A DNA stretch of 64,000 bases from Candidatus Eisenbergiella stercoravium (GTDB taxonomy: Bacteria > Bacillota > Clostridia > Lachnospirales > Lachnospiraceae). The stretch is from the NCBI GenBank assembly GCA_019113175.1, contig DXHY01000001.1, forward strand, positions 1 through 64,000, given 5' to 3'. Positions 10,021 through 14,645 of this stretch are shown here, in pieces. Numbering within the stretch: the stretch's first letter is position 1; each line of letters starts with the position of its first letter. A program made the position numbers and the translations under genes. Under the pieces are notes generated by a model that saw only the letters and a list, made by a program, of their open reading frames with translations, made no database searches and was not told the DNA's origin.

Positions 10021-10087
10021 AGTTTAACATATCCGGAGGATAAGGAAAAATACTTTTCTTTCATGTTTACTATAATGGCATGTTATA
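10021..10087 (-). promoter_or_regulatory. leuC / lysR control region with LysR-type box
   Basis: ATAATGGCATGTTAT (10072-10086) contains the T-N11-A dyad of LysR-type regulators (10073-10085) with ATAA/TTAT arms. On the minus strand a -10-like TAAACT lies at 10021-10026, placing the box centre about 65 bases upstream of the expected leuC start, the classical position for this regulator type. The -35 is poor, as expected for an activated promoter. On the plus strand a TATAAT at 10099-10104 could serve lysR, so the same box would autoregulate it. Confidence 0.6.
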
Positions 10088-10135
10088 CTATAATTAAATA
10101 TAATGAATGCAGGTTATAAAAAGAAGGAGGAAACC

Positions 10136-11065
10136 ATGGAGCAGAATCTGAACCTTTATCATATTTTTGTCACTGTTGCGAGATGCAAAAATATCTCCGG
10201 AGCGGCCCGGGCGCTTTATATCAGCCAGCCGGCCATCAGCAAGGCGATTTCCCGGCTGGAGCAGAACCTGAATACCACGCTGTTTCTACGTTCCAGCCGG
10301 GGCGTGAAGCTCACCGAAGCCGGTGAAATCCTGTACCGGCAGGTAGAGAGCGCGTTTCTCGCCATCAGCCAGGGGGAACAGCAGCTGAAGAAAATGCAGG
10401 AGCTGGGAATCGGCCATCTCTCCATCGGCGTAAGCAGCACCCTCTGCAAATATGTGCTTCTGCCCTATCTGCGCACATTTACGGAGGAGAACCCGCACAT
10501 CCAGATCTCCATCGCCTGTCAGTCCACCTATCAGACGGTTCAGGAGATGGAAAATGGTTCCGTGGATATCGGTCTGATCGGAGAAAACGACCATATGGAC
10601 AAGCTCTCCTTTTATCCCATTCAGGAGATCGAGGATATTCTCGTCTGTACCGGAAGCTATCTTGACAATCTGAAGGAAAGGGGAAGCCTTTCCGATTCTC
10701 CTTCCCCCCATGAAATCATCGGGGCATCCACGCTGATGCTTCTGGATAAGGGGAATATTACGAGACAGTATGTCGACAAATATCTTGCAATGGAGGGCAT
10801 TCTGGCAGAGCAGACGCTGGAGGTCACCTCCATGGATCTTCTCATCGATTTTGCAAGGCTCGGTCTGGGAATCGCCTGTGTGATCCGTTCCTTTGTAGAA
10901 AAAGAGCTGGAGGAGGGAACGTTCATCAGTCTGCCGCTTCCTGCGGCAATCCCAAAGCGGAGAATCGGCTTCGCCGTCCAGAAGAACGCGCCGTTTTCCC
11001 CGGCACTTCAGAAATTTATGGACAGCGTTTTTGACTCCGGCGGAAAGTTTGTCGGCCTAGTTTGA
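10136..11065 (+). CDS. LysR-type transcriptional regulator, likely of leucine/isoleucine-valine genes
   Basis: A 309-residue LysR family protein. The N-terminal winged helix (about 1-60) has the typical FVTVARCKNISGAARALYIS and QPAISKAISRLEQNL segments; residues about 90-295 form the two-lobed effector-binding domain. I start at the ATG at 10136, directly after AAGGAGGAAACC. The gene is divergent from leuCD and its box recurs upstream of ilvN-ilvC, so a role in branched-chain amino acid control is a good inference. The effector is unknown; an intermediate such as 2-isopropylmalate or acetolactate would be typical of LysR logic. Its 3' end lies 55 bases before the IS-like element. Confidence 0.92.
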   Translation: MEQNLNLYHIFVTVARCKNISGAARALYISQPAISKAISRLEQNLNTTLFLRSSRGVKLTEAGEILYRQVESAFLAISQGEQQLKKMQELGIGHLSIGVSSTLCKYVLLPYLRTFTEENPHIQISIACQSTYQTVQEMENGSVDIGLIGENDHMDKLSFYPIQEIEDILVCTGSYLDNLKERGSLSDSPSPHEIIGASTLMLLDKGNITRQYVDKYLAMEGILAEQTLEVTSMDLLIDFARLGLGIACVIRSFVEKELEEGTFISLPLPAAIPKRRIGFAVQKNAPFSPALQKFMDSVFDSGGKFVGLV

Positions 11066-11252
11066 GAATGCGAAGGAGCGGTCTTCAGAGCCTTATGTGC
11101 GAGATTTTTATGCAAAAAAGGGGCTGTCGCACTAAATAATTAGTGCGGCAGCACTTGCAGAGAATAAGAGCCAAGTCTGTGCAAGGCCTGGCTTTTAGTG
11201 TCTAAAATTTTTATGTGTCATAAATCATATTATATAAGAATTATTTCTCAGA

Positions 11253-12464
11253 TTATATCATACTAAGTAATTTTTGTTGCTCGCTTTTAAATTCTTCGTC
11301 GGTAAGCAATCCAGATTCTTTCATCATTTTAAGCTTTTCTACTTTTTGTTTAAAATCATTGATTGAATCTGAGGATGATTCAATTGAATTGTTACTGGCA
11401 GAATTTGCGCCTGCAATATCTACTCTTAAAAGTCTTCCATCTTCAATGACATTTACCGACTGATGTAAAACAGTTTTCTTTTCTAGTTCATCTACAATGC
11501 CATATTTCTTTTCAGGAAGATATGTCTGTAAAAAATTATAAATATCCTGTGGTAATTCAATATCAATATATTGTTTTTTTGTATCAGAATAAAAATTCAG
11601 CATAACACTTCTATTGTCGATTTTTTTAATATCTATATCTAAAGAAAAAGAACTATATCCTAACGTATGTTCAGCAGGTTTATATGTCAGCGCAGCACCT
11701 AATGCCATACCCATCAACCCAAATAGTGCTCCTCCTCCTACTGTTGCTAATTTCGAAATCTTCCCACCTGTTAAGCTGCCTCCATAGCTTGAATAGTCAC
11801 CATGAATATCTGAAACGTATGAAATATTTCCGGCTTTTTCATAGTAATGAATATTTTTGTATTCAATTATTCCATTATTTTCTTCTTCAGAATAACCATC
11901 AATTTTCAGAAAGTTTAGATTTCTGTTTTCATCTATATATATTAATGCAATTTTGTTATTCTCTGAAAACAATGTAAATGTTGGTGTAGATTCTTTTATG
12001 TGAAACGAAAAGCAATTATTGTAAAATTGAAATGCTTTATTTTCTTTTTCAATTGCAATTCTTTTTTGGTTTTCTTTGTTTTCAGATTCTAGTTTTTGTT
12101 TATTTTCTTCTTCCTTCAGGAATTCGTTCTGTTGCTCCAAAATAAGATTGTACCATTTGGAGATGTCGTTAATTCCCGGCAGCACAATCGTTTCTTTACT
12201 TCTATTCACAACAGAAGCAGAATTATATTCAATAAATAGTGCCCTCTGGTTATTTACATTATCTATGAATACCCTTGTAATGTCTTTATATCTCACTTCA
12301 AACGATTCCGTTTCTTTGCTAAGTTCGTTATCAAAAAACATGAAGCAAACACTATCAATATATGAAGGATAGATATATAACTTTATATTATGCTTTTTAG
12401 CAAAAATACCATTTTTGTATTCTCCAGAATAAAAGTCAATGCATTTTTCTATGTTTAAATTCAT
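11253..12464 (-). CDS. SHOCT-domain protein of unknown function, IS cargo
   Basis: I do not recognise a named function. The 403-residue protein has an N-terminal PH/GRAM-like half (about 1-110), a charged coiled coil near 110-150 (NEFLKEEENKQKLESENKEN), a glycine-rich hydrophobic stretch near 240-265 (ATVGGGALFGLMGMALGAAL) that could be a membrane hairpin, and a C-terminal SHOCT motif (LKMMKESGLLTDEEFKSEQQ), a short domain usually found at protein ends. The start at 12464 is chosen because GGAGG lies eight bases upstream; a much longer frame runs on into the transposase remnant and a hydrophobic leader but lacks a ribosome site. Its AT content is far above neighbouring genes, which fits recent transfer. 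Confidence 0.75.
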   Translation of the reverse strand: MNLNIEKCIDFYSGEYKNGIFAKKHNIKLYIYPSYIDSVCFMFFDNELSKETESFEVRYKDITRVFIDNVNNQRALFIEYNSASVVNRSKETIVLPGINDISKWYNLILEQQNEFLKEEENKQKLESENKENQKRIAIEKENKAFQFYNNCFSFHIKESTPTFTLFSENNKIALIYIDENRNLNFLKIDGYSEEENNGIIEYKNIHYYEKAGNISYVSDIHGDYSSYGGSLTGGKISKLATVGGGALFGLMGMALGAALTYKPAEHTLGYSSFSLDIDIKKIDNRSVMLNFYSDTKKQYIDIELPQDIYNFLQTYLPEKKYGIVDELEKKTVLHQSVNVIEDGRLLRVDIAGANSASNNSIESSSDSINDFKQKVEKLKMMKESGLLTDEEFKSEQQKLLSMI

Positions 12465-12631
12465 ATACATATCCTCCGTTATTGAATAGTTTTTGCAATT
12501 TATTATTATAGCACAATACAGGAAAGCAACCAATATATAGTTTGTATCTTGTGCAAAAACAATAAAATATAATATAAATAGTAGGATATTCATAGCAAAG
12601 GATAACAAATTCGCTATGTTAGGTAATACTC

Positions 12632-12841
12632 TTGATGGTTTACAAGACCAATATTGCAAACATCAAAGAGGATATGGAATTCAGACGATATTTACGAGAA
12701 AATTCAAATATCACCGCCCAGAGTATCATACTGGCGATCAGGTATAGCATAAACAAACTTCATCATAAGATTCAGGCGGGAAGGACAAGACAGCATTTTT
12801 TTGTAATAAACAGAATAGAAGAAGTGAATATTTCAGCTTAA
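12632..12841 (+). pseudogene. C-terminal remnant of an IS1182-family transposase
   Basis: The frame reads IKEDMEFRRYLRENSNITAQ and continues IILAIRYSINKLHHKIQAGR, matching the pattern D-x-x-F-R-R-(F/Y)-L...N-I-N-K-L-H-x-K-I-Q found at the end of DDE transposases of this family. The catalytic domain is missing. No real start exists. It ends at the TAA at 12839-12841, followed after 57 bases by the IS end, the normal spacing for an IS 3' end. The stretch 12465-12631 between it and the cargo gene holds nothing else that I can identify. Confidence 0.7.
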
Positions 12842-13942: not shown

Positions 13943-14012
13943 TTTTCTTTCCTCCATTATGTTGATATAACTGAAAGGCGGTAAGGCCGCCTCAGAGTCC
14001 GTTTTCAACGGA

Positions 14013-14516
14013 TTACAGGTCCAGATAGACCACATCCTCCGTTCCTCTGCACAGACCGGCTATACCGGTACGGGCGAGTTCAAGAACCTCATAATTGCTC
14101 AGCAGGCTGATACAGGCATCCAGCTTGCTCTGATTTCCGGTCAGTTCCACCGTCAGATGCTCCGGTCCCACATCGATGATGTTTGCCCGGAAAATATTGG
14201 TAATCGCGATCACTTCCTGTCTCTGTGCCGCCGATACCCTCACCTTGATCAGGGCGAGCTCTCTGTATACGCTCTTTTCCGGCTTCAGTTCGCGGATATC
14301 GCGGACATCTACGAGCTTTCCCACCTGTTTTTCAATCTGTTCAAGTATCTCGTCATCTCCCGAGGTCACTATGGTGATCCGGGTGAGTCTCGGATCCGCT
14401 GTTACACCGGCGGTAATACTTTCGATATTGTAGCCTCTTCTGGAGAACAGGCCTGAAATCCGGCTGAGAACGCCGGAGGTATTATCCACGAGAAGCTGAA
14501 AAACCTTTTTCTGCAT
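14013..14516 (-). CDS. ilvN: Acetolactate synthase small subunit
   Basis: A 167-residue regulatory subunit with an N-terminal ACT domain beginning [20 protein letters not shown], followed by [13 protein letters not shown] and the middle domain ending in the conserved LELARTG. It binds valine and controls the large subunit. The ATG at 14516 has a GGAGG site. It leads an ilvN-ilvC unit with its own strong promoter, separated from ilvB by a second small-subunit gene and a repeat tract. Together with the paralogue at 14746 it gives one large and two small subunit genes in the same cluster. Confidence 0.93.
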
Positions 14517-14545
14517 GACGCAACTCCTCCGTCCGTTGTTGATTT

Positions 14546-14574
14546 ATTCTAGCAACATTGAGCTTCCTTGTCAA
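14546..14574 (-). promoter_or_regulatory. ilvN-ilvC promoter
   Basis: On the minus strand TTGACA (14569-14574) and TAGAAT (14546-14551) are separated by exactly 17 bases. The expected transcription start is near 14539, about 23 bases before the ilvN start codon. Confidence 0.75.
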
Positions 14575-14599
14575 CGTATGATAGCCAGGCATGGTTTCC

Positions 14600-14645
14600 A
14601 TAACCATCGGTTATAACGCCTGAATCACTATAAAATTTGCGTTAT
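14600..14645 (-). promoter_or_regulatory. LysR-type operator upstream of ilvN-ilvC
   Basis: A perfect dyad ATAACC-ATC-GGTTAT (14600-14614) contains T-N11-A and is centred about 68 bases before the predicted start. A second, looser dyad, ATAA-N8-TTAT, is centred roughly 30 bases further upstream (about 14629-14645), consistent with additional LysR contact sites. The ATAA-N7-TTAT frame of the first box is the same as in the leuC/lysR region. Confidence 0.6.

Follow-up and report, generated by a model that had tools for sequence, protein, structure and literature searches.

A LysR-type gene of Eisenbergiella and the paired candidate operators that may link it to leucine and valine/isoleucine synthesis genes

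According to PMC6483228, acetolactate is the ligand of IlvY, the LysR-type regulator of ilvC in Escherichia coli, and LeuO of the same bacterium is described as responding to 2-isopropylmalate (PMC12494820). In Listeria, deletion of ccpC is reported to lower ilv and leu transcripts 1.4- to 2.3-fold, by a direct or an indirect route (PMC11176438). Here we describe a lysR gene and two similar candidate operators, one in the leuC-lysR gap and one upstream of ilvH2-ilvC, in a 64,000-nucleotide stretch (hereafter the window) of the 4.1-Mb genome of Candidatus Eisenbergiella stercoravium (assembly GCA_019113175.1, contig DXHY01000001.1, positions 1 to 64,000). The named records closest to the regulator protein are from Eisenbergiella (Lachnospiraceae), and among the open-licence PMC papers listed by our searches none described this regulator or reported that a LysR-type protein controls leuCD and ilvC in Lachnospiraceae. 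Comparison with related loci suggests, with a probability that we put at roughly three in four, that this protein acts as repressor of its own gene and most likely as activator of leuCD, and that ilvH2-ilvC is under its control too, with 2-isopropylmalate as the most likely effector. Control of leucine and valine/isoleucine genes by one regulator is a sensible but ordinary arrangement.

The preliminary description of this DNA had reported two boxes, ATAATGGCATGTTAT at 10072-10086 and ATAACCATCGGTTAT at 14600-14614, with a shared frame ATAA-N7-TTAT containing T-N11-A, and both are present exactly so. It had also placed their centres about 65 and 68 bases upstream of predicted transcription starts; they do lie near -65 (leuC) and -68 (ilvH2) when the start is taken to be 7 nucleotides past the last base of the -10 hexamer, whose first base is 60 nucleotides (leuC) or 63 nucleotides (ilvH2) away from that of the box. 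With these predicted starts, the divergent leuC-lysR region carries the T-N11-A dyad near -65 that is expected of a LysR-type target. A second dyad, absent from that description, emerges from the site alignment at both promoters, 22 bp from the first: it reads AT-N11-AT, mostly ATRA-N7-NNAT, begins 7 bp past the box on the gene side and is followed by an extended -10. The regulator gene and the elements of the two promoter regions are as follows.

10136..11065, plus strand: lysR, encoding a LysR-type transcriptional regulator of 309 amino acids (Pfam HTH_1 81.2 bits, LysR_substrate 118.1 bits, both above cut-off)
10072..10086, minus strand: site 1 at leuC, ATAACATGCCATTAT read toward leuC, an ATAA-N7-TTAT dyad (frame search, site alignment, gap survey)
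10066..10094, plus strand: predicted lysR promoter TTTACT-17-TATAAT, with site 1 within its spacer
10050..10064, minus strand: site 2 at leuC, ATGAAAGAAAAGTAT, separated from site 1 by 7 bp in the direction of leuC (site alignment)
10044-10049, minus strand: poor -35 of leuC, TTTTCC
10021..10029, minus strand: extended -10 of leuC (TGT TAAACT), at offset 60 from site 1
14631..14645, minus strand: upstream half-site ATAAC (14641-14645) with a weak dyad, 31 bp from site 1 at ilvH2
14600..14614, minus strand: site 1 at ilvH2, ATAACCGATGGTTAT (8/8 outer-tetrad columns without variation across 12 genus genomes)
14578..14592, minus strand: site 2 at ilvH2, ATGCCTGGCTATCAT, which reads ATGACTGACTATCAT in 9/12 genus genomes
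14546..14574, minus strand: ilvH2 promoter TTGACA-17-TAGAAT with extended -10 (TGC), both hexamers invariant in 12/12 genus genomes

The frame alone makes a weak case. The window holds three copies of ATAA-N7-TTAT where 0.91 are expected, and 9 of 100 shuffles reach three; the only other copy (12377-12391) lies within an open reading frame (ORF) and was for that reason rejected as a regulatory site. Across the genome the frame is not enriched (61 copies versus 68 of a reversed control pattern). By first-order resampling, the chance of a box within its own gap is 0.048 for leuC-lysR and 0.012 for ilvH2. These two copies nevertheless look like real sites when related loci are compared.

At the leuC-lysR gap, the box was found in 32 of 34 gaps other than that of the window, where resampling gave a mean of 1.63 and a maximum of 6, and the two-site arrangement pointed toward leuC in 31 of the 34 and toward lysR in none. 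This survey left out L030, in which the leuC match is split, L032 and L034, which have no leuC, second copies of included loci (L036-L046, L048 and L064) and loci without an adjacent leuC; the 34 gaps, like the 12 genus genomes considered below, come from related genomes and are not independent draws. The offset of the leuC -10 was 60 in 32/32 two-site matches, the window included, and in the 16 loci from outside the genus the box reads ATAACTACAAGTTAT or near it. The promoter of lysR itself is more variable. TTTACT or TTTAAT-17-TATAAT with the box in its spacer occurs in the window and 14 other gaps (15/19 non-outgroup gaps), whereas all 16 outgroup loci have a -10-like hexamer 17 bp after six letters that lie inside the box and begin with TTG in 15 of them. 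In either layout site 1 and the lysR promoter overlap, so that protein bound there should block lysR, and the retention of the box while the promoter around it differs in build is the best sign, among the sequences compared, of selection for autorepression.

The ilvH2 site, too, is kept within the genus. ilvH2 was located in 13/13 Eisenbergiella genomes, none being excluded for want of a box, and the box is present in 12 of the 13, the window included; the contig of the thirteenth stops 90 bp upstream of ilvH2. Across the 12, the eight tetrad columns are invariant, the five inner and 45 upstream columns never are (hypergeometric P 1.2e-6, with columns treated as independent), and the 45 bases upstream have a mean identity of 38%. 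The ilvH2 -10 lies at offset 63 in 8/8 two-site matches, again counting the window. The preliminary description had also mentioned a third, weaker dyad further upstream of ilvH2; this is real as a half-site, with ATAAC exactly 31 bp upstream of the box in 10 of the 12 genomes, including the window.

A further question is whether the leuC and ilv sites are the same site. A matrix built from the 16 leuC sites outside the genus, with zero ilv sites, constitutes an independent test within the window: it ranks the leuC and ilv sites first and second (3.9 and 2.9), and no place clear of both scores above -5.1. A symmetric 15-bp matrix from the same 16 loci ranks the ilv box first. Over the 13 genomes, a two-site pattern gave 61 matches versus 20 for its reverse, which by hand fell into 13 at leuC (two of them in G008), 12 at ilvH2, 11 of a purA type and 25 others. 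A joint model of leuC and ilv sites gave 25 matches in these genomes at E ≤ 0.0181, all at leuC or ilvH2, ahead of a next-best match at 0.14. The box retained in leuC gaps and, at ilv, in all 12 examinable genus genomes, and the recovery of the ilv site by a leuC matrix from outside the genus, argue that both boxes are LysR-type and that the same protein probably binds both, as the preliminary description had proposed; the regulator gene beside one of them would be the obvious candidate.

The protein itself has the N-terminal HTH_1 and C-terminal LysR_substrate domains of the LysR-type family, and its AlphaFold model (pLDDT 89.2, pTM 0.65) resembles full-length LysR-type structures. It falls under the cut-off of every one of the best 25 of 58 matched NCBIfam models. 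The IlvY model is matched by 32/32 aligned members at E ≤ 1e-20, the bit score being known for the window protein only. LeuO appears neither among these best 25 matches nor among 22 families at E ≤ 1e-20, in a comparison that did not include LeuO directly. Among 50 fold-search matches listed, YeiE and GloR have the closest effector domains, and CcmR and CynR come lower in the list, at 17-24% identity; the likeness to YeiE and GloR does not tell the ligand. A regulator 54% identical is encoded at MT837267.1:3639-4511, an unannotated 7.3-kb record from a faecal sample that is named Bacteriophage sp. and is possibly a bacterial contig filed as phage.

We propose that the product of the gene at 10136-11065 is a LysR-type regulator dedicated to one pathway, the synthesis of branched-chain amino acids. 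Its paired operator would consist of a strong site 1, ATAA-N7-TTAT with C as the fifth letter in almost every case, and a weaker site 2 (AT-N11-AT) centred 22 bp nearer the target gene. Protein bound at site 1, within the lysR promoter, would repress lysR; through site 2 it would extend to the weak leuC -35 region, with activation of leuCD as the most likely outcome. The same paired operator would put ilvH2-ilvC, for the small subunit of acetolactate synthase and ketol-acid reductoisomerase, under the same protein; since the ilvH2 promoter is near consensus, this operon may be tuned, not switched on. As signal we favour 2-isopropylmalate, acting by feed-forward, because it is the substrate of LeuCD and because LeuO is described as responding to it; acetolactate or acetohydroxybutyrate is less likely. 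Comparison shows the paired sites to be present at both promoters, conserved, alike and in a fixed geometry, and from them we infer the binding of the regulator, autorepression, activation and the effector. A short, two-operon regulon with a conserved operator offers a directly testable DNA target and ligand.

Several results weigh against this reading, beyond the poor showing of the frame across the genome. The symmetric matrix leaves the leuC box of the window outside its best eight places. Neither a matrix trained on 13 leuC sites, taken from the genus plus G015, nor one trained on the 12 that remain without the window lists the ilv site among its six best window places; with all 29 leuC sites it takes third place, the leuC box on its reverse strand scoring higher. 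A covariance model of the 16 non-genus leuC sites found neither site in the window's genome at E ≤ 5 and, on the modelled strand over the 13 genomes, recovered the ilv site in three and the leuC site in two; this model is too weak for a whole-genome search. Both sites were already known when the two-site pattern was drawn up and the joint model trained; the latter scored only 150 candidates per genome, and most of its matches are training sites or copies of training loci. Two of the 34 leuC-lysR gaps (L013 and L015) are boxless, and site 2 at ilvH2 reads ATGC, not ATGA, in the window, G002 and G011. Outside the genus, the strict ilv frame is absent from 21 of 24 loci in the 330 bp searched, which means that the ilv promoter can work without the site; 10 of 23 non-genus matches of the joint model have no known link, and that scan missed the ilv site of G015, a member of its own training set. 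Activation at ilvH2 is doubtful, given a near-consensus promoter whose -10 is 3 bp more distant. Finally, regulator binding, the effect on expression and the ligand are drawn from comparison and analogy.

Among the alternatives, the best survivor holds that the protein represses ilvH2-ilvC, and perhaps leuCD, until a ligand relieves it, an unlikely arrangement that would be compatible with binding of one protein at both sites. It draws on the ilvH2 promoter being near consensus, and activation indeed fits the predicted leuC promoter better than the ilv one. A poor -35 with a fixed upstream operator is, however, the usual layout of activated LysR promoters, and the leuC promoter (TTTTCC) has just this; moreover, no half-dyad was seen by eye between the -35 and -10 of ilvH2, and the protein is far under the CcpC cut-off (79 of 400 bits). 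The precedent is CcpC at citB, where an ATAA/TTAT dyad centred at -66 is described as serving repression relieved by citrate (PMC8514465), and because that similar dyad serves repression, the sign of control at ilv could go either way.

It is less probable still, and we regard it as improbable, that only the leuC-lysR site belongs to the local regulator and the ilv site to another LysR-type protein such as the paralogue beside purA. That 308-residue protein, perhaps a purine regulator, is encoded directly downstream of purA (L109:3155-4081, G000:C25:14654-15580); its presumed operator, upstream of purA (L109:5668-5704, G000:C25:17167-17203), repeats both the ATAA-N7-TTAT frame and the two-dyad spacing. 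Sites of the purA type occur in 11/13 genus genomes, the link to purA being that of the window's genome, so the frame is not unique, and the failure of genus leuC matrices to find the ilv site points the same way. Yet the letters separate the two groups: position 5 of site 1 is C in 42/43 aligned leuC and ilv sites versus 1/11 purA-type sites (in G008), just before the right tetrad, 11/11 purA-type sites carry a C and none of those 43 does, and the non-genus leuC matrix places the ilv site second in the window. That chance produced the palindrome at ilv, in an AT-rich gap, and common descent alone retained it is very improbable and already disfavoured. In favour of this reading are the unenriched frame (61 versus 68), the chance of 0.012 for its gap and its absence from 21/24 non-genus loci; against it are eight tetrad bases kept in 12/12 examinable genus genomes beside 38% identity in the 45 bases upstream, a second dyad with the spacing of 22 bp and the orientation seen at leuC, and both dyads again in G015 and G114, outside the genus.

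How far the putative shared control by the regulator extends beyond Eisenbergiella was examined in 120 genomes of the family, 22 of which had matches to the joint model. Of the 23 matches outside the genus, 10 lie at leuC-lysR, two at ilvH2 and one at an ilvB homologue (13/23 together). The strict ilv dyad was found in 3/24 non-genus loci, namely G015, G114 and G127 (in the last 262 bp from the gene), and the sites of G015 and G114 carry both dyads; the count excludes L030 and L031, with too little sequence upstream of ilvH2, and loci without an ilvH2 start. Fifteen of the 21 loci without the dyad come from the set of relatives of the regulator, and 14 of these 15 keep the order leuC, lysR, ilvC, ilvH2. 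The preliminary description had named loss of the dyads in close relatives with the same gene order as evidence against it: no such loss occurs in the genus, and in the more distant loci the strict ilv dyad is absent from 21 of 24. In a tree of IlvC and LeuC, Eisenbergiella, G015, G114 and G127 do not form one clade, and the tree therefore does not decide between gain and loss. Tentatively, and at somewhat less than even odds, we suggest a hitherto undescribed leucine regulator of LysR type throughout the Lachnospiraceae, with feed-forward by 2-isopropylmalate and an ancestral regulon of leuCD and itself; in Eisenbergiella and a few other lineages ilvH2-ilvC would have been gained, or kept where others lost it, via a copy of the two-dyad operator. 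The patchy ilv site offers an example of the way in which the regulator of a pathway acquires or gives up a further operon.

On the minus strand, from right to left, come ilvB, ilvH1, ilvH2 and ilvC, and further left leuC and leuD; lysR, on the plus strand, is divergent from leuC, with ilvC downstream and convergent. leuC is the divergent neighbour of the regulator gene in 33/35 fetched relatives.

15345-16961, minus strand: ilvB
14746-15240, minus strand: ilvH1, the first acetolactate-synthase small-subunit gene, after ilvB
14013..14516, minus strand: ilvH2, second acetolactate synthase small subunit (TIGR00119, 190.5 bits, above cut-off)
12932..13951, minus strand: ilvC, ketol-acid reductoisomerase (NF004017, 572.6 bits, above cut-off)
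8720..9988, minus strand: leuC, 3-isopropylmalate dehydratase large subunit (TIGR02083, 733.2 bits, above cut-off)
8163..8654, minus strand: leuD, 3-isopropylmalate dehydratase small subunit (TIGR02084, 266.8 bits, above cut-off)

The gene previously called ilvN is the second of two small-subunit genes, the first, ilvH1, following ilvB. These tandem genes (14013-15240), about 37% identical, stand beside one ilvB here and in many fetched Lachnospiraceae loci. The gap between them (14657-14746) holds four degenerate copies of a 28-nucleotide repeat of the TTTTTTCCGAAAATCTTTTTCCGGACAT type, not seen by eye in the relatives inspected. Between lysR and ilvC (11116-12902) lies an AT-rich insert edged by 20-nucleotide inverted repeats (AAAAGGGGCTGTCGCACTAA), with an ORF whose match to SHOCT is sub-threshold; in L002 the same interval is only about 130 bp long.

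Other control elements were looked for as well. At gathering scores, Rfam gave no T-box or other element for leuCD or ilv in the whole window, and from 7900 to 17600 nothing at E ≤ 0.5, which argues against a T-box at these genes. Nor did the gathering-level search find a T-box at the leuA-like genes, the two best of which have no site at one mismatch within 500 bp; a T-box leader upstream of one of these two (L131:1469-1737, G000:C46) scores 85.5 bits, below the gathering score of 93. By these searches, RNA control seems to apply to the leuA-like gene of L131, with no comparable element at leuCD or ilv. A candidate in front of leuB-ilvD was rejected, the 500 bp there offering two one-mismatch places, one of them in what by eye is a terminator-like hairpin, and so was a two-site match on contig C30, inside an ORF that by eye resembles an ABC permease. 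In a region of another genome that by eye is prophage-like (L168, G003:C108:12500-21500), ATAAY-N5-RTTAT dyads recur in tandem every 31 bp at each of two places separated by 5.5 kb and are possibly phage operators.

Set against the described systems, the locus shares features with each. The BenM/CatM operators of Acinetobacter, as described in PMC6628147, likewise have a perfect T-N11-A dyad as site 1 (ATAC-N7-GTAT) with weaker further sites, and CatM is the best profile match of the regulator in the PDB; those systems serve aromatic catabolism and have three sites, whereas here there are two and a conserved half-site upstream of ilv. CcpC of Bacillus and Listeria shares the ATAA/TTAT dyad near -66 and a target encoding a dehydratase of the aconitase superfamily (PMC8514465), yet its second site is centred at -27, not near -43 (leuC) or -46 (ilv), and the window protein reaches 79 of the 400 bits required of a CcpC. 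IlvY of E. coli is also LysR-type, with two tandem operators, the first of which gives autorepression, and controls ketol-acid reductoisomerase in the account of PMC6483228; the window protein differs in scoring 100.9 of the 246 bits required, in having its gene divergent from leuC and not from ilvC, and in having leuCD as its widely kept target. LeuO of E. coli and relatives is a LysR-like protein encoded beside the leucine genes leuABCD, which it controls, but it is credited with more than 100 targets and with antagonism of H-NS (PMC12494820), whereas the predicted regulon of the regulator described here comprises two operons.

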